The notes beneath the pieces were generated by a model. It did no database searches and was not told where the DNA came from. It saw nothing but the letters and a program-made list of their open reading frames with translations. Positions 11,815 to 61,555 of a DNA stretch of 64,000 nucleotides are shown one piece after another (the stretch's first letter is position 1; each line of letters opens with the position of its first letter). Source of the stretch: Terriglobia bacterium (GTDB lineage Bacteria > Acidobacteriota > Terriglobia > Bryobacterales > Bryobacteraceae); NCBI GenBank assembly GCA_016650235.1, contig JAENWC010000140.1, positions 1 through 64,000 on the forward strand. Reading direction: 5' to 3'. The position numbers and the translations under genes are program-made.

Positions 11815-13446
11815 ATGAAACTCGCACTCAGCCTCCTTGCTTGTTACTGTGCCGTTCAGGCTCAGGTCGCCTTCACTGATATCACTGCCCAGGCCGGCAT
11901 CCGGTTTACGCACAATGCCGGCAAAGCCGGAAAAAAGTATCTGCCGGAAACCATGGGCGCGGGCTGCGCTTTCATCGATGCCGATGGCGACGGCTGGCTC
12001 GATATTCTCTTGATCAACAGCCGCGATTGGACTCCCCGCGGACGGAAGTCGCTTCCGGCGCTGTATCGAAACAACGGCAAAGGGGCTTTTGTGGATGTAA
12101 CCATATCGAGCGGTCTCGATATCGAAAGATACGGGCTGGGCGTGGCGGTGGGGGACTATGACAACGATGGACGCGACGATCTCTACATCACCTATTTGGA
12201 AGGCGATCGTCTGTTTCACAATGAAGGGAACTTCAAGTTCCGGGACGTGACGGACGCGGCGGAAATCCGCAACTCCGGGTTCGGAACGTCAGCCGCATGG
12301 CTCGACTATGACCGCGACGGCAAGATCGATCTCTTTGTGGCCAACTATGTACAGTGGACGCAGAAGAACGATCTCTGGTGTTCCCTGGATGGATCCACCA
12401 AGTCCTATTGCACTCCGGAATCCTACAAAGGCATTCCCGCGCGCCTATACCGGAATTTGGGAGGAGGCCGCTTCGCCGATGTGAGCCAAAAGGCGGGGGT
12501 CGAAATTGCAAACTCCAAAGCTTTGGGAATCGCCGTGCTCGACTACGACAACGACGGCTGGCCGGATCTGTTCGTCGCCAACGACACGCAGCCGAACCAG
12601 CTTTTCCATAACCTGCGGAACGGCGCATTCAAAGAGGAAGGCATGATGGCCGGGGTGGCGTTTGGGGAAGACGGCATGGCTCGAGGAGCCATGGGCGTGG
12701 ACGCCGCCGATTATGACCGGTCCGGGCGGCAGCACTTGGCGGTTGGAAATTTTTCCAATCAGATGCTGGGGCTTTACCACAACGAAGGCAATGGCCTGTT
12801 TGTGGATGAAGCGCCGCGATCGGCAATTGGTAAAGCCAGTCTGCTGACACTGGCCTTCGGCGTGCTTTTCTTCGATTATGATTTGGACGGCCATCTGGAC
12901 CTGTTCGCCGCCAATGGGCATATTGAGGAAGAGATCGGGCGCGTGCAGCCGAAGGTCGCCTTTCGCCAGGCGCCGCATCTGTTCCGGAATCTTGGACGCG
13001 GCCGGTTTGAAGAAGTTACCTCGAAGGCCGGCCACCAGCTTGCCCGGCCCATCGTTGCGCGCGGCGCCGTTTACGGCGACTATGATCGCGACGGGGATCC
13101 GGACCTGCTCATCTCCACCAACAACGGGCCAGCCTACCTCTTGCGCAACGATGGCGGTAATCGAAACCATTGGCTGCGCGTTCGCTTGCACGGCGTAAAG
13201 TCTAACCGCAACGGTCTGGGAGCCACGGTGCAAGTGGAAAGCGCAAATGGAAAGCAGCGGCAGATGATGCGCAGCGGCTCCAGCTACTGCTCATCCTCTG
13301 AGCTGGTTCTCACATTTGGGTTGGGCGCTGGCACGGCCGTAAACGCGGTCGAGGTCTCCTGGCCCAGCGGGACCAAACAAAGCTTTACCAAACTCGCCGC
13401 CAACCAGACTGTTATCATCGACGAAACGAAAGGAATTCTACCCTGA
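11815..13446 (+). CDS. CRTAC1-family protein (FG-GAP propeller + ASPIC/UnbV)
   Basis: 543 residues with a short signal peptide (MKLALSLLACYCAVQAQ). The opening VAFTDITAQAGIRFTHNAG is characteristic of bacterial CRTAC1 proteins. At least six calcium-type FG-GAP loops follow: DADGDGWLDI, DYDNDGRDDLY, DYDRDGKIDLF, DYDNDGWPDLF, DYDLDGHLDLF and DYDRDGDPDLL. The C-terminal ASPIC/UnbV domain runs from NHWLRVRLHGVKSNRNGLGA to VEVSWPSGTKQSF. The start codon follows the cytochrome stop without a gap. Known family members are extracellular and adhesive or protein-binding; no enzymatic role is established. Together with 5882-11814 it forms the exported redox/propeller cluster. Confidence 0.88.
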   Translation: MKLALSLLACYCAVQAQVAFTDITAQAGIRFTHNAGKAGKKYLPETMGAGCAFIDADGDGWLDILLINSRDWTPRGRKSLPALYRNNGKGAFVDVTISSGLDIERYGLGVAVGDYDNDGRDDLYITYLEGDRLFHNEGNFKFRDVTDAAEIRNSGFGTSAAWLDYDRDGKIDLFVANYVQWTQKNDLWCSLDGSTKSYCTPESYKGIPARLYRNLGGGRFADVSQKAGVEIANSKALGIAVLDYDNDGWPDLFVANDTQPNQLFHNLRNGAFKEEGMMAGVAFGEDGMARGAMGVDAADYDRSGRQHLAVGNFSNQMLGLYHNEGNGLFVDEAPRSAIGKASLLTLAFGVLFFDYDLDGHLDLFAANGHIEEEIGRVQPKVAFRQAPHLFRNLGRGRFEEVTSKAGHQLARPIVARGAVYGDYDRDGDPDLLISTNNGPAYLLRNDGGNRNHWLRVRLHGVKSNRNGLGATVQVESANGKQRQMMRSGSSYCSSSELVLTFGLGAGTAVNAVEVSWPSGTKQSFTKLAANQTVIIDETKGILP

Positions 13447-13448
13447 TT

Positions 13449-14309
13449 ATGAATCCAAAACTCCGCATCGCGGCCATTACCGACGAGTATTCTCCCGACC
13501 TGGCCACCGCGCTTGCACCGATGGCCCAGACCGGTATGCAAGGCGCAGAACTACGCACTGTGTGGGGCAAGAATATCATGGACCTCACCGGCGATGAGTT
13601 GAAGCGGGCGCACCAGATGATTCAGGACAAGGGCATGGAGGTGATCTCGATTGCATCGCCCATTCTCAAGTGCGTGCTTCCCAACGGAGGCGATGTGGAC
13701 CCACGTTTTCAGCACGACATCTTCGCCTCTAAGCACACGTTTGAAGATCAGCCGCGGCTGGCCGCGCACGCCTTTGATGTGGCCGAGGGCATGGGTGCGC
13801 GTATCATCCGCGTGTTCTCCTATTGGCGCACGGTAGAACCGGGGAAGTGTTTCTCAGCCATCGTGGAAGCGTTGCAGAATCTGGCCGAGCAGGCTGCGGC
13901 GCGCAATCTGATCATCGGCCTGGAGAACGAGCACGCCTGCAACATCGCCACAGGCGCTGAATCGGCGAAGATGCTGGCAGCGGTGCAGCATCCGAATCTG
14001 AAGCTGGTGTGGGACCCGGCCAACGCGTTATGCGCCGGCGAGAATCCCTTCCCGGAAGGCTATTCCAAAGTGCCCGCCGATCGCATTGTGCATGTACATA
14101 CCAAGGACTGCCACATGGAAGGCCACAAGCCCGTGTGGGGACCGCTGGGCACGCGTTCCGTGGATTGGAAGGGCCAGATCGCAGCACTCAGGAAAGACGG
14201 CTATAACGGCTGGCTGAGCCTCGAAACGCACTGGCCAGGACCGTCGAACGACAAACTCCTCGCAAGCACCATTTGTGGATGGAACCTGCGCGGCTTGGCG
14301 AGTTCCTAA
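13449..14309 (+). CDS. Sugar phosphate isomerase/epimerase-like TIM barrel protein
   Basis: 286 residues of the xylose-isomerase-like TIM-barrel (AP endonuclease 2) superfamily. Metal ligands are visible in order: GLENEH, VWDPANAL, HVHTKDCH and SLETHW, as in 2-keto-myo-inositol dehydratases and hydroxypyruvate isomerases. No signal peptide, so cytoplasmic. It starts two bases after the CRTAC1 stop and may be on the same transcript, although the role (sugar or inositol catabolism) does not obviously connect. The precise substrate cannot be assigned in this broad family. Confidence 0.82.
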   Translation: MNPKLRIAAITDEYSPDLATALAPMAQTGMQGAELRTVWGKNIMDLTGDELKRAHQMIQDKGMEVISIASPILKCVLPNGGDVDPRFQHDIFASKHTFEDQPRLAAHAFDVAEGMGARIIRVFSYWRTVEPGKCFSAIVEALQNLAEQAAARNLIIGLENEHACNIATGAESAKMLAAVQHPNLKLVWDPANALCAGENPFPEGYSKVPADRIVHVHTKDCHMEGHKPVWGPLGTRSVDWKGQIAALRKDGYNGWLSLETHWPGPSNDKLLASTICGWNLRGLASS

Positions 14310-14605
14310 TTTGCCACGTTTAGCCCTCGGGCAATCTCCGTGCTCACGATAGCCGTTTCGCCCAGACGCTTTAAGGCTGTAAGCTCCGGATCGCGTGCAT
14401 AGGACTCGAAGGAGGCCTCATCACCAAAACTGACGATGTGGACCTCGCCAAACGTGTGCTGCGGCCCGTCCTCCGTCCACTTGATGACGCGCTCGATTCT
14501 GCCTCCGTACCTGGACATAATGGCAGCAGCTTTCCGTTCGAAGCGTTGGAATTCAGGAGCCGCGTTGCGGCGGACTGTTAGCCCGTCTTCGTCAGTGCGC
14601 CCCAA
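14306..14605 (-). CDS. DUF1330-like small dimeric alpha-beta barrel protein, 5' end doubtful
   Basis: 99 residues. The core PEFQRFERKAAAIMSRYGGR, then FGEVHIVSFGDEASFESYAR, matches DUF1330-type ferredoxin-fold proteins, whose function is unknown. Family members normally start with a hydrophobic strand directly before the segment equivalent to TVRRNAAPEF. Here that strand is replaced by GRTDEDGL, and the sequence just upstream (from 14595) looks like an unrelated structured element, so the N-terminus may have been lost. It is convergent with the preceding gene, with a 4-base overlap. Possibly a truncated, non-functional gene. Confidence 0.5.
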   Translation of the reverse strand: MGRTDEDGLTVRRNAAPEFQRFERKAAAIMSRYGGRIERVIKWTEDGPQHTFGEVHIVSFGDEASFESYARDPELTALKRLGETAIVSTEIARGLNVAN

Positions 14606-14790
14606 GGGCGTAGATCACCAGTGGGGGAAGGACCCACTCAAGTAGTTGTTGGTAGGACTTGATAGCTTGCGAGCGTCCGAGCCGGAAAACCGGTTAGGGC
14701 GGTGCCTCGCGATAAAGCCCACGAATGGTGGGTGAGCAACCTTGCAGGCCGTAACGCTGCCGCGCGGCGATCCAGGTCAACAAAAGGACT
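14595..14790 (+). ncRNA. Group II intron-like 5' structured fragment
   Basis: The stretch starts GTGCGCCCC, like the GUGYG 5' end of bacterial group II introns. It folds on paper into successive hairpins: GCGCCCcaaGGGCG; GTGGG...CCCAC (14623-14642); CAAGTAG...ACTTG; GAGCCGG...CCGG; GCCCACgaatGGTGGGT. The AGCAACCTTGCAGG segment also resembles intron domain I. No domain V, 3' end or reverse transcriptase follows, so it would be a 5' fragment. It sits where the DUF1330 gene loses its homology. The call is from memory of consensus features and is uncertain. Confidence 0.38.
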
Positions 14791-14796
14791 CTTGCC

Positions 14797-16629
14797 ATGC
14801 CGTGTACGCTATCATTTGTACCTATGTGGATTCTATTGGGCCTGCTGTTGACCTCCTCTCTGCTTTGGTGCCAGACGACGGCTATCACCGGGGTCACCAT
14901 TGTGGATGGCACCGGGCGCCAAGCGTATTCCGGCAGTGTGGTGATGGAGGGCGACCGCATCACGGCAGTGGGCGGCAAGGTGGAGCTGCCGGCGGGAGCC
15001 CGCCACATTGATGGAAGGGGCCACACGATCACGCCCGGCTTCTTTGACCTCCACACGCATCTGCCCTACTCAGGCGTGAACGGACTGTCGGGCGACTGGC
15101 CCAAGACGCTGATGGCGTATCTACACAGCGGCGTGACTTCGGTAGTGGATTTTGGGACTTATCCGGAAACGTTTGAGCCGATGCGAAGACTGATTCGCGA
15201 CGGCGTCATTGTTGGACCGCGGCTGCATCTGGCGGCGCGCATGACCACTCCGCTGGGACATGGGGCAGAGGGAGGGCGCGGGGACTTCTTCTCTTTGGAG
15301 GTGCAGACGCCGGAGGAGGCGCGCGTGGCGGCGCGGCATCTGCTTGCCTATCAACCGGACGCCATCAAGGTGTTTACGGATGGCTGGCGCTACGGCGGCG
15401 GGCCGGACATGAGCAGCATGACACTAGAGACCTTGCGCGCCATTGTGGAGGAGGCTCACGCCAAGGGAGTGGAGGTTCTCACGCATACGGTGACGCTGGA
15501 GAAGGCGAAGATTGCCGCGCGCGCCGGAGTGGATGTGATCGCGCACGGCATAGGGGATGCCGTGGCGGACGAGGAATTGATCGCGCTGATGCGCAGCCAC
15601 GGCACCACCTACGCACCGACTCTGGCGGTGTATGAGAACAAGCCGCGCGGGCCGGTAGTCCCTTCTCTTAGGACGCTGCTGGAGCCGGCGGCGCTCGAGA
15701 TCCTGCGGGCGGCCCGGCGCAACAATGCCGAGCCGCAGCCGCATCGCATCGCGCGGTGGAAGCGCCTGTGTGCCAACACGGCCGCGCTCAAAGCGGCGGG
15801 GGTAGCGTTTGGAACCGGCACCGATGCGGGGGTGACGGGCACCTATCACGGCTGGTCCACGTTGCGCGAGATGGAGCTGCTGGTGGCGTGCGGTTTGACG
15901 CCGTTGGAAGCTCTCACGGCAGCCACGGGCAATAGCGCGAAGGCGCTCCATGTGGATCAGGAGCGCGGGACCATTGTTGAGGGCAAGCTGGCCGATCTGG
16001 TGCTGATTGAGGGTAGCCCGCATACGAACATCAAGGACGTTTGGAAAGTGAAGCGGGTATTTCTGGGGGGAAAGGAACTGGATCGTGCAGCGATGGCCGG
16101 CCAGATCGCTACCGCGGAGATCACACCGCTGCCGGCACGAACGGTCCCGGCGCTGGTGGATGACATGGAGGGTGCGCGGACAAGGCTGGACACGCTGCGC
16201 GTGAACGCGACCGACTCGGGCACGGACATCAGCAAAATGAGCATGGGCGTGCGGCAGCGTCCGGAAGGAGGCCGCGCGCTGAGTATGCAGGCGACCATGA
16301 GTATCAAGCCGCGTCCATTTGCGCAGGTAGTGTTCCCGTTGAGCCCGGGGGGCGTGGAACCCGTGGACGTATCGGCCTACAAGGGCGTGCGGTTTGAGGC
16401 GCGCGGGGATGGCGTCTACAAGTTGCTGGTGCATACGCGCGCGGCGCGCGACCATCGCTATCCGGCCGCATTGTTCGAAGCGCCGGCGGGATGGAAGCAG
16501 ATCGAGATTCCGTTCACCAGTCTTGAGGGAACGTGGACGGGGCGGGACGCACTGCTGCTGGTCTTCGAGATGGCGCGTAAGGGTGGTGAGTTCGGATGGC
16601 TGGAGCTTGATAACATCGAGTTTTACTAA
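14797..16629 (+). CDS. Exported amidohydrolase with C-terminal CIA30-like domain
   Basis: 610 residues. A hydrophobic leader (MWILLGLLLTSSLLWCQ from the in-frame ATG at 14824; the earlier ATG at 14797 is also possible) suggests export. Residues about 27-440 are an imidazolonepropionase-like amidohydrolase: GFFDLHTHLP at 82-90 gives the HxH, DAIKVFTDGW the bridging Lys, EVLTHTV and VIAHGIG later histidines, and GTGTDAG the catalytic Asp. From about 455 to the end, VDDMEGARTRL to GWLELDNIEFY resembles the CIA30 jelly-roll, possibly a carbohydrate-binding module. The fusion suggests an exported cyclic-amide or peptide hydrolase tethered to a ligand. It is followed 12 bases later by another exported protein. 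Confidence 0.8.
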   Translation: MPCTLSFVPMWILLGLLLTSSLLWCQTTAITGVTIVDGTGRQAYSGSVVMEGDRITAVGGKVELPAGARHIDGRGHTITPGFFDLHTHLPYSGVNGLSGDWPKTLMAYLHSGVTSVVDFGTYPETFEPMRRLIRDGVIVGPRLHLAARMTTPLGHGAEGGRGDFFSLEVQTPEEARVAARHLLAYQPDAIKVFTDGWRYGGGPDMSSMTLETLRAIVEEAHAKGVEVLTHTVTLEKAKIAARAGVDVIAHGIGDAVADEELIALMRSHGTTYAPTLAVYENKPRGPVVPSLRTLLEPAALEILRAARRNNAEPQPHRIARWKRLCANTAALKAAGVAFGTGTDAGVTGTYHGWSTLREMELLVACGLTPLEALTAATGNSAKALHVDQERGTIVEGKLADLVLIEGSPHTNIKDVWKVKRVFLGGKELDRAAMAGQIATAEITPLPARTVPALVDDMEGARTRLDTLRVNATDSGTDISKMSMGVRQRPEGGRALSMQATMSIKPRPFAQVVFPLSPGGVEPVDVSAYKGVRFEARGDGVYKLLVHTRAARDHRYPAALFEAPAGWKQIEIPFTSLEGTWTGRDALLLVFEMARKGGEFGWLELDNIEFY

Positions 16630-58470: not shown

Positions 58471-59178
58471 CTAGACCACCCTCTGGTTGTAGGAGGTCAC
58501 ATCGAGGCCAATGCCCGGGCCCATGGTGGAGCAGACCGTGGCGCTCCTTACATATTTGCCTTTGGCGGCCGGGGGCTTGGCTTTGACGACGGCCTGTATC
58601 AGCGCGCTTGCGTTCTCCAGCAGCTTGTCCGGGGCAAAGCTCACCTTTCCCACCGGAGCGTGAATGACGCCGGTCTTGTCGACACGGAACTCCACCTTGC
58701 CAGCCTTGATTTCCTGAATCGCCTTGACCACATCCGCGGTCACAGTTCCGGTTTTCGGATTGGGCATGAGTCCACGCGGCCCGAGCACCTTTCCGAGTTT
58801 GCCCACCGAACGCATCATGTCCGGGGTGGAGATCACAGCATCGAAGTCGGTCCAGTTTTCAGTCTGGATCTTCTGCACCATGTCCTCGCCACCGACGAAG
58901 TCGGCACCGGCATCCTTGGCTTCCTGATACTTGTCAGCGCCGGCGATGACCAGCACACGAATCTTTTTACCGAGCCCATTGGGCAGCACGACGGTGCCGC
59001 GCACCATCTGGTCGGCATGTTTCGGGTCAACGCCAAGGCGCATGTGCACCTCAACGGTCTCGTCAAACTTGGCAAACTTGATTTTCTGGGCAAGCGGTAC
59101 AGCTTCTTCCAGCGGGTAGGGCCGTGCTTCGATCAGACGCGCGGCGGCGGAATAATTCTTTCCAGGTTTACGTGCCAT
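58471..59178 (-). CDS. rplA: Ribosomal protein L1
   Basis: 235 residues from [16 protein letters not shown]; a longer frame to 59334 exists, but this ATG begins the family N-terminus. Motifs: [44 protein letters not shown] and [19 protein letters not shown]. It binds 23S rRNA at the E site and represses its own operon elsewhere. In most bacteria rplK (L11) lies directly upstream; here the upstream kilobase contains pseudogenes instead. A separate promoter is proposed at 59290-59317. Confidence 0.96.
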
Positions 59179-59287
59179 ATAGTGACTGGTCCAAACGGCG
59201 GACACTCGCGGGCGTTTCCACCCGGCGTCCACCTCCCAAGGTGATTCCTTACAAAACTTGCAGAGTCCGGCCCAGAGGACGGAAGTT

Positions 59288-59491
59288 TTATTGTAGCAGA
59301 TCTTGAGCGGGGCGCAATGCTCCGGACCGCCCAATGGTTACGAAACGATCCTCTTCCGTTGAATGTTACGGATCGCTGATGGTCACAGAGAGGGTTTCTC
59401 GAAATACCGAGGCGGCCTCTTCGAAGGTGATGCCGTGCTTCCGCAGGTTCGAGCGGGCCTTCTCCGGATGCCAGCGAAGAACGGTTTCCAT
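59288..59491 (-). pseudogene. BrnT toxin remnant with an in-frame TAA
   Basis: From ATG 59491: LRWHPEKARSNLRKHGITFE, then EAASVFRETLSVTISDP, the standard BrnT N-terminal half with the WDPxKAxxNxxKHG motif (the Asp is replaced by His here). A TAA at 59368-59366 interrupts exactly where the family continues. The same frame then reads [15 protein letters not shown], the next conserved BrnT segment, before unrelated residues. The C-terminal strand is missing and no BrnA follows. A nonsense-mutated, truncated toxin. Confidence 0.75.
59290..59317 (-). promoter_or_regulatory. Candidate sigma70 promoter for rplA-rplJ-rplL
   Basis: On the minus strand TTGCGC (59317-59312) and TACAAT (59295-59290) are separated by 16 bases. 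Transcription would start near 59283, giving a leader of about 105 bases before rplA. It lies inside the end of a BrnT remnant. Confidence 0.55.
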
Positions 59492-59519
59492 GTCTCTTGC
59501 ACTGCCCCTTCCATCTGCG

Positions 59520-59561
59520 GGCTAACGGCTTGGGCATCAACCGCCGCCGCGCTTTTTAGGC
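59520..59561 (-). other. Possible decayed attC site
   Basis: In the minus orientation GCCTAA (59561-59556) and CGTTAGCC (end near 59520) bracket 42 bases after the DUF4258 remnant. The right box differs by one base from the GTTRRRY consensus, and the left one lacks the final C. Weak alone; considered because a better site occurs at 59826-59891. Confidence 0.25.
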
Positions 59562-59759
59562 TAAATATAGGCCCCCAAATCCGCTTTCAACGCCCCGTCG
59601 ACCGATCCCCGTCTGGCCAATCGCTATTCTGGAGCCGTCTCACCCCGGACGATCTTCTCCCGGGTTCGTCAAGACCTCCTCAACTTCTTCCTCGTCCACG
59701 TCTTGGTTCCTGATGTGCGGTTGACCCGTTGCGGGATCGAGGTAGAAACGAAGATCCAC
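59556..59759 (-). pseudogene. DUF4258-like toxin-type gene with in-frame TGA
   Basis: From a GTG at 59759: LRFYLDPATGQPHIRNQDVD, EEEVEEVLTNPGEDRPG, then TGA (59642-59640), and in the same frame DGSRIAIGQTGIGR. Intact members read '...EDRPGREGSRVAIGQTxAGRYLRVIY'. The similarity spans the nonsense codon, and the C-terminal strands are absent. Members occur in TA pairs and in integron cassettes. The gene follows the attC-like site in the same orientation, 67 bases away. The assignment is from pattern memory. Confidence 0.6.
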
Positions 59760-59825
59760 CGGGACCAGTCGAACTACCGGCTGTGCCCTGCAAGCCGCCG
59801 CGGTGGTACGTTAAATCGACGGGCG

Positions 59826-59891
59826 GCCTAACGGCCGGGGCGCTCAGGCGCGGCCCGTTTTTGGCAGTCGCCTCCAGCGGCTTCGTTAGGC
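59826..59891 (-). other. attC-like recombination site (integron cassette site)
   Basis: In the minus orientation the 66-base stretch begins GCCTAAC (RYYYAAC consensus) and ends GTTAGGC (GTTRRRY consensus). The boxes extend into an 8-base match (GCCTAACG / CGTTAGGC). After two unpaired AA bases in the left arm the pairing resumes with GCCG/CGGC, and further GC-rich partial pairing follows. The extrahelical bases and the size fit attC architecture. It lies 31 bases after the stop of the small ORF at 59922-60191, as a cassette attC should. No integrase gene is in the window. Confidence 0.55.
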
Positions 59892-59921
59892 TGCTCACGT
59901 CTTCTGAACGTTAACGTTTGC

Positions 59922-60191
59922 TCAGTTCCAATTGGCAGGTTGCGCTTGGAAATCAGGCAAGTTGGACTGAATCACATTCTGCATTTCCGTTTTCAGCGTC
60001 TCAACGTTCTGTCGAAGCTGGTCGACGTCGATTGAAGTCAAATCGAACGTGAACCGGGAATGAGTCAGCTCGAATTTGTTTGGTGAACTCAGCTTGAGCA
60101 TCACGTCGTAACGGCCAGCCTTCCACCAGAATGATTTCTTTCGAGCGTCGAGAAGATCGTGCAATTCTTTGCTCGCGAGAGCCTTAGCCAC
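59922..60191 (-). CDS. Hypothetical cassette-like protein
   Basis: 89 residues from GTG: WWKAGRYDVMLKLSSPNKFE, LTHSRFTFDLTSIDVDQLRQ and a C-terminal helical QNVETLKTEMQNVIQS. No family recognised; no signal peptide or membrane segment. Coding-like sequence continues upstream in frame (AHFTFLKRSGEADYVAKALA) without a conventional start, so the original protein may have been about 20-40 residues longer. The base composition is visibly less GC-rich than its neighbours, suggesting transfer. An attC-like site follows its stop, as in an integron gene cassette. Confidence 0.5.
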   Translation of the reverse strand: MAKALASKELHDLLDARKKSFWWKAGRYDVMLKLSSPNKFELTHSRFTFDLTSIDVDQLRQNVETLKTEMQNVIQSNLPDFQAQPANWN

Positions 60192-60467
60192 GTAGTCTGC
60201 CTCACCGCTACGTTTCAGGAAAGTGAAGTGTGCTACCAGAGTCGAAATCGCTGGCCGAACTGCCCGCTGGTAACGCGGCTCTTGGAATCGAACGAGTGAG
60301 TTCGATCATCGAATCTGGGTGATGGAGAACTTCCTACCCAAAGGCGATGCGGCTAAGTAATTGAAGGAAACCCCCGCCTCCCATGGTGTGCTGCACCGCT
60401 TGGTTGATTAACCGGCTGCGCTGGCACGGCCTGGCGATTCTGTCGCCTCATGAGTACACAAATTAAA
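60192..60467. other. Intergenic stretch without assigned gene
   Basis: Between the cassette-like ORF and the M48 terminator. Short frames on the plus strand (for example one reading ESKSLAELPAGNAALGIERV) resemble no family I know. No RNA gene or attC boxes seen. Confidence 0.4.
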
Positions 60468-60502
60468 GCCCGATGCCGCTTCCTCGGCATCGGGCCTTTC
60501 TC
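60468..60502 (-). terminator. Intrinsic terminator of the M48 protease gene
   Basis: An 11-bp perfect stem GCCCGATGCCG / CGGCATCGGGC with a 6-base loop (60468-60495). On the minus strand it is followed by TTTAATT, and on the plus strand by CTTTCTCT, so it may act in both directions. Confidence 0.8.
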
Positions 60503-60550: not shown

Positions 60551-61555
60551 TCAGTTGCGGCGTTTCAGCGTAGGCCGCTCTTCTTCGTCTTCGGCCTTGG
60601 GCTTTTCTTCACCTTCGGAATCGATGCGGCCCGAGCCTGCCTTGCGCAGCCGCGGCTTGTTCTCGTCCTTATCGTCCACCTTGCGGCGGTTCAACAGGGA
60701 TGTCAAGCGCAGCTTGACGTCGTTGAACTCGGACGTGGTCACCACGTATTCCGGCTTGGACTCCAGGATCTCTTGAATGTTCTTCTGCGAATTCTTGATG
60801 CGGTCATCGGTGAGCGGGTGCGAAGAGAAAACCTTCGCCATCGTGCCCGGCTTGCGCTTCTCATCCGATTGCAGTTTTTCAAAGAAGTCTACGAATGCGG
60901 TTGGATCGTAGCCGGCCTTGTAGAGATACTGCAGCCCCAGCAGGTCCGCTTCGGATTCAAAGCCGCGAGAGAAGGAGAGGAATCCCAGCGGCACCAGAAC
61001 ACTGGCCGCCTGCCGAATCCCGTAACCGGCCCAGCCGCCCATGAAGATCAATGGGATCGTGGCCAGGTTCGCAATCTGTCCGCGCGAGGCCTGCCGCGTC
61101 CCGTGCCGCGCCGCGATGTGCGCAATCTCGTGCGCCATCACACCGGCCAGTTCCGCTTCCGTTTCCGCGCGCAACACCAGCCCCGTGTGTACAAAGAAGA
61201 ACCCGCCCGGAAGCGCGAAGGCATTCACCTCTTCGCTGTCGATCACCTTGATGGTGACCGGAACCTTTACATCCGAATTCCGCACCAGGTTCTGACCCAC
61301 ACGGTTGACGTACTCGGCAATCACCGGATCATCCACGATCTTGGCCTGCCGCTCGATATCCTGCGCCAGAGCTTTCCCCATCCCGATCTCTTTCTCGAGC
61401 GAGTAAAGGTTGATCCCCTTGCCGACATCGCGATTGCCGATCTCGTCCGGATCTTTCTTCTTGTCCTTGGCAAACGCGCCAACCGGGAGCAAGAGCACAG
61501 CGACCATCGCGACCGAGGTCATCTGCTTTAAGGTGCTCATCACCGTACCATTCAT
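60551..61555 (-). CDS. M48-family metalloprotease (BepA/LoiP-like), exported
   Basis: 334 residues from the ATG at 61555, preceded by AAGGGAGA; the frame extends further but lacks a signal there. Signal peptide MTSVAMVAVLLLPVGAFA. The zinc site HEIAH at residues 142-146 and GFESEADLLG with the third ligand are intact. The loop SRGQIANLATIPLIFMGGWAGYG is a hydrophobic stretch typical of the family. A charged C-terminal tail (about 60 residues, KDENKPRLRKAGSG) is probably disordered. Likely periplasmic protein quality control. A terminator follows. Confidence 0.88.
   Translation of the reverse strand: MNGTVMSTLKQMTSVAMVAVLLLPVGAFAKDKKKDPDEIGNRDVGKGINLYSLEKEIGMGKALAQDIERQAKIVDDPVIAEYVNRVGQNLVRNSDVKVPVTIKVIDSEEVNAFALPGGFFFVHTGLVLRAETEAELAGVMAHEIAHIAARHGTRQASRGQIANLATIPLIFMGGWAGYGIRQAASVLVPLGFLSFSRGFESEADLLGLQYLYKAGYDPTAFVDFFEKLQSDEKRKPGTMAKVFSSHPLTDDRIKNSQKNIQEILESKPEYVVTTSEFNDVKLRLTSLLNRRKVDDKDENKPRLRKAGSGRIDSEGEEKPKAEDEEERPTLKRRN

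Follow-up and report, generated by a model that had tools for sequence, protein, structure and literature searches.

In a live integron array, the bottom strand of each attC site folds, is bound by the integron integrase and is recombined, so that single-gene cassettes are inserted and excised. The locus described here lies within the window (the whole 64,000-nucleotide stretch of DNA that we analysed, from a contig of a Terriglobia bacterium of the family Bryobacteraceae), and it raises the question of whether a 66-base palindromic element and the small open reading frames (ORFs) around it are what is left of such an array. Integrons have been detected in Acidobacteriota (PMC8618304), a covariance model for Acidobacteria attC sites already exists (PMC8352920), and clusters of attC sites lacking an integron integrase (CALIN) have been proposed to be degraded integrons (PMC9024848). 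An earlier note on this DNA had read positions 59179-60191 as a decayed cluster of attC sites without an integrase. That reading is supported by the results below, in which three genes are broken, a second attC site is truncated and no integrase is found on the contig, and we consider it very probable that 59312-60293 is a decaying CALIN-type fragment of an integron gene-cassette array; the extent first given has to be replaced, as the remains span instead about 59312 to 60293. Read along the minus strand, the order is a broken gene (gene 1), a complete attC, a second broken gene (gene 2), a truncated attC and a broken brnT gene, and the remnant begins and ends inside genes. The features, by position in the window, are as follows.

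58474-59239, minus strand: host flank, rplA with a 57-base leader, the leader 84% identical to that of sister genome G001
59312-59491, minus strand: gene 3 remnant, a brnT toxin gene (PF04365), with an in-frame stop after codon 41
59520-59561, minus strand: truncated attC, with the end of L'', the loop, L' and the R' box present, and R'' and most of L'' gone
59640-59759, minus strand: gene 2 remnant, 39 aa, DUF4258-like only by an earlier label
59826-59891, minus strand: complete attC, from R'' GCCTAAC to R' GTTAGGC, of minus polarity, matched by the covariance model
59889-60293, minus strand: gene 1 remnant, covering residues 126-260 in a family of 260-aa proteins, with the start absent and two in-frame stops near the end
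60551-61549, minus strand: host flank, a metallopeptidase gene, M48-type by eye, with an 88% identical protein in G001

A complete attC site

The 66-base element was found where the earlier note had placed it, with the boxes GCCTAAC and GTTAGGC on the minus strand; these satisfy RYYYAAC/GTTRRRY, and all seven of seven pairs form between them. A strict scan, which required the box patterns, their pairing and an inner stem, gave it as the sole site in the 64-kb window, recorded once per orientation, and gave no attC-like site in the reversed window. A looser scan of the window gave one more row, at 2737-2842, that has the look of chance. At other loci the reversed controls were not always free of such rows: the strict scan gave two each in L019, L024 and L027, and the looser one three in L027.

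Thirteen attC sites, found in seven related genomes, went into a covariance model; they were taken from the attC-like sites that the looser scan gave in the relatives' integrase-linked stretches, with the own genome left out and the structure written by hand. The covariation score of the model was 0.330 (mean after shuffling, 0.089), and 85.9% of its cells were paired, compared with 26-40% when the partners were slid, a comparison in which the structure is favoured because it comes from the same sequences. Searched over 137 kb, the model matched the element at 49.0 bits (E 3.4e-10) and the opposite strand at 14.3 bits, so that the polarity of the site is minus. The inner stem is imperfect, with unpaired bases on one arm and some arm pairs broken. 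The bottom strand, here the window's plus strand, folds into a hairpin of -20.8 kcal/mol (z -3.05), which none of 200 shuffles equalled, and seven other attC sites of the own and related genomes fold at -19.1 to -30.6. The earlier note had named a missing covariance-model hit as a refutation and had proposed folding the bottom strand; on both points the outcome was in favour of the element. A search of the locus against Rfam gave no match. Judged by its sequence, the 66-base element is a genuine attC site.

A truncated second site

Further along the minus strand, 59520-59561 can be aligned to attC sites over their right two-thirds, namely the end of the left arm, the loop and the R' box. Its best local score against 55 attC sites of relatives (drawn from 104 rows) was 30.5, a value reached by none of 2683 stretches of the window with comparable G+C, nor by any of 2000 shuffles. 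Scored as a whole attC with the covariance model it gave 12.5 bits, and it folds no better than its shuffles, with no hairpin. The earlier note had described a weaker attC-like pair at this place: the attC origin holds, while the pair turns out to be a single attC that is truncated and has no true R'' box, a complete attC being ruled out by the absent left box and by the low score as a whole site. This is a second attC of the same family that has lost R'' and most of L''.

Three broken genes and their homologues

The small ORF before the complete attC is positioned as had been described (open over 59922-60191, with its stop at 59922, 30 bases before the site), and its region is indeed low in G+C (50.7% for 59892-60293, compared with 60.3% for the window), but it represents only the C-terminal half of what was a longer gene. 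The full remnant was matched by tblastn with homologues from genome G172 and from Pelomonas as queries, and is cut by a stop about a dozen residues early. Three of the 199 genomes of a phylum sample, the own genome included, matched this family at E <= 0.001, the strong match being G172 (57% identity) and the third genome, G225, being marginal. The G172 homologue is full length and has an attC match directly after it, on a contig with eight attC matches that share a strand and of which the weakest has E 0.015. Among the named genomes scanned, homologues occurred only in two Pelomonas, where neither locus has a convincing attC (nearest match 12.1 bits), and gene 1 is thereby ruled out as a cassette-only gene. 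Four palindromes near the homologue in one Pelomonas locus (L135 6358-6392, 6609-6643, 7420-7454 and 7482-7516) have weak attC-model scores; three of them score on both strands, and all four have the look of some unrelated, dispersed repeat.

Gene 2 had been called a DUF4258-like toxin remnant. Pfam gives no match for it at E <= 1 and so does not confirm the DUF4258 label, but a cassette-borne homologue does exist: an ORF of G082, the only outside match among the relatives' loci searched and likewise without a Pfam match, is 61% identical over 28 residues and is flanked by attC matches of 22.4 and 28.3 bits. The BrnT assignment of the third remnant was confirmed (PF04365, E 7.3e-10), with profile positions 1-35 of 77 followed by the stop, the full domain being absent. 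In tblastn with nine brnT-like ORFs from relatives and the own genome, similarity continues past this stop codon and ends at about 59312. Same-strand attC matches lie on both sides of six of the nine distinct brnT-like hits in the loci examined (two in L117, one each in L118, L114, L069 and L111), a figure that shows position and not frequency, since eight of the nine loci were chosen for attC or integrase matches. The remaining loci have an attC just upstream (L016), an attC downstream (L107) or a partial attC (L125).

Flanks and synteny

On the peptidase side, DNA similarity to G001 starts at 60553, and a terminator-like hairpin lies near the peptidase gene at 60465-60498; on the other side, the likeness to G001 ends with the 57-base rplA leader, past which G001 carries different DNA. 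The peptidase gene and rplA are on separate contigs in G001, so that their join in the window is a synteny break, and the comparison with G001 yielded no empty site for the locus. Together with the outer ends inside genes, the break favours rearrangement or deletion over a clean insertion, without proving it. rplA was matched in 56 of 61 genomes searched, and the rplA loci of 29 relatives gave no attC at E <= 1.

The DNA upstream of rplA varies among family members. At the window locus rplK is not adjacent to rplA; among the relatives' loci (L029-L058) it is present in the DNA upstream of rplA in 12 of 29 and absent in 17, one of which covers only 130 bases upstream. Separation of rplK from rplA is common among relatives, and a split ribosomal operon was accordingly discarded as a special setting. 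Elsewhere in the window, a strong Rfam match to the group II intron family RF02003 (14619-14759, plus strand, 89.9 bits) lies between two ORFs, with no intron-encoded protein recognised among the ORFs of at least 150 aa listed for 12000-16000.

Integrases and attC sites in the genome and its relatives

The own genome gave 11 integron integrase matches at E <= 10, none on the window contig and none at the cut-off; the assembly, of 562 contigs, has a completeness of 86.42%, and the absence therefore refers to this contig and to an incomplete assembly. The intI gene that a complete integron has beside its array is absent at the window locus. The best match in the genome (113.4 bits, contig C126) leaves out part of the profile, and the part left out is likewise missing from many weak matches in relatives, which are probably Xer-type. 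The genome also has 72 matches to TIGR03437, a domain typical of Solibacter, against none in 14 controls, which supports its assignment to Acidobacteriota.

At least 14 attC sites, one of them partial, were detected on 10 contigs of the own genome at E <= 0.003, and at E <= 1 the model gave 17 rows corresponding to 16 sites, one row being an opposite strand; these counts are lower bounds, 150 of 9104 first-look candidates having been scored. Contig C333 carries four of the sites. The locus is, on these numbers, one piece of a scattered cassette population, and the genome has more attC sites than the earlier note could show from the window. One more stretch of the genome resembles the window attC at 82% over 49 bases; the attC model matches it weakly, and an ORF follows. 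Contig C328 (L105 7620-8290) has an apparently whole single cassette, with GTTAGGC, a 174-aa ORF and then a 63-bit attC; no attC precedes it, and two small ORFs that are toxin-antitoxin-like by eye come after. An attempt to find its empty site gave long similarity on one side only. On C397 (L026 6119-6190), a weak attC match of 19.7 bits stands before a 172-aa ORF for which Pfam gave no match.

An integrase above the TIGR02249 cut-off was present in three of 101 genomes (the own genome and 100 relatives), namely G095 (same class), G061 (same order) and G048 (same family). Weak matches occurred in all 101 genomes and in 14 of 14 controls, so that the cut-off alone is informative. Sixteen stretches of relatives were taken around strong or partial integrase matches, and the looser scan found attC-like sites in nine of them. 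With stricter filters, attC matches at E <= 0.01 were present in at least 21 of 81 genomes, including at least 13 of 49 of the family, both figures being lower bounds. Two of those 21 attC-bearing genomes, G048 and G061, have an integrase above the cut-off, and some others have partial matches (e.g. G004, G033, G087 and G089). The site adjoining the integrase in G061 has most of the arms of the window attC in common. The search of relatives that the earlier note had recommended, for the same attC family and a distant intI, thus placed this attC family on integrase-bearing contigs.

Discussion

We observed the identity and polarity of a complete attC, the truncation of a second one, the breakage of the genes and their attC-linked homologues; the polarity, the covarying model, the bottom-strand fold, the second attC, the homologues and the synteny break together lead to the reading of a CALIN-type array fragment. 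An older cassette array would have existed, of which rearrangement and deletion most likely left the fragment seen here, and this fragment is now decaying, cassette recombination having stopped, one attC having lost an arm and the genes having been broken. What counts against this reading is that one attC only is complete, that no integrase is near, that gene 1 is not tied to cassettes, that the rplA loci of 29 relatives gave no attC, that most of the brnT loci were chosen for attC or integrase matches, and that a rearrangement is invoked without an empty site.

Other routes to a CALIN can be considered, and off-target insertion, intI loss and rearrangement are all given as possible origins in PMC8618304, where off-target capture is also proposed for CALIN formation. 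Applied to this locus, a distant integrase would have inserted cassettes at a secondary attG-type site near rplA, where they later decayed. The apparent single whole cassette of C328, with no attC before it, is in line with such capture, but the locus has at least three cassettes in a row and both of its ends fall inside genes and not at an R' boundary, and we regard this origin as unlikely. A broader proposal, which we hold to be decidedly unlikely, is that cassettes in this bacterial family persist mainly as scattered integrase-free pieces, with the complete attC here usable in trans; it builds on the attC sites in at least 13 of 49 family genomes set beside an integrase above the cut-off in 1 of 61, and the pieces would stem from off-target insertion or from integrases that are gained and lost again. 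Also under the preferred reading of a decaying array fragment, the complete attC could still serve in trans for recombination.

It is extremely improbable that the element is an ordinary dispersed palindromic repeat merely resembling attC. It is a good palindrome, and the genome does contain the stretch of 82% similarity, but that stretch is also matched, weakly, by the attC model and is followed by an ORF; moreover, the site has a polarity (49.0 versus 14.3 bits), cassette-type neighbours, and family members on integrase-bearing contigs. The earlier note had also named a conserved ordinary repeat unlinked to cassettes as a way in which its reading could fail, and here homologues of all three genes adjoin attC matches in relatives. 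An assembly chimera, with foreign cassette DNA misjoined between two host stretches, is thinkable in a draft of 562 contigs whose flanks lie on different contigs in G001, but it is highly improbable: both flanks match G001, further attC sites occur in the own genome, and the assembly holds no near-identical second copy of the attC that could have misled the assembler.

Comparison with known systems

CALIN-type elements have already been described, and this locus is a new example of a well-known kind that leaves the existing understanding of integrons unchanged. Toxin-antitoxin cassettes rank among the commonest (PMC8618304), BrnT/BrnA are listed among integron-borne systems (PMC7370490), and in Xanthomonas CALINs lie distant from the integrase, in a report that also cites work on attG (PMC12444791). 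The integron arrays of G095, G061 and G048 share the attC family of the window locus, with brnT-type cassettes in G061, but they have an integrase above the family cut-off. The contig of G172 with eight attC matches is alike in its gene 1 homologue (57% identical) followed by an attC, and differs in that the gene is full-length and the array long. As in a CALIN, attC sites and cassette-type genes stand in one orientation without an integrase; unlike a CALIN, the locus has one complete and one truncated attC, and every gene is broken. CALIN are by default reported from two attC sites upwards, and single ones may be true (PMC9024848). A remnant below this default may escape the two-site threshold of the usual software, yet it offers a clear example of array death, with one attC intact, one halved and all genes broken.
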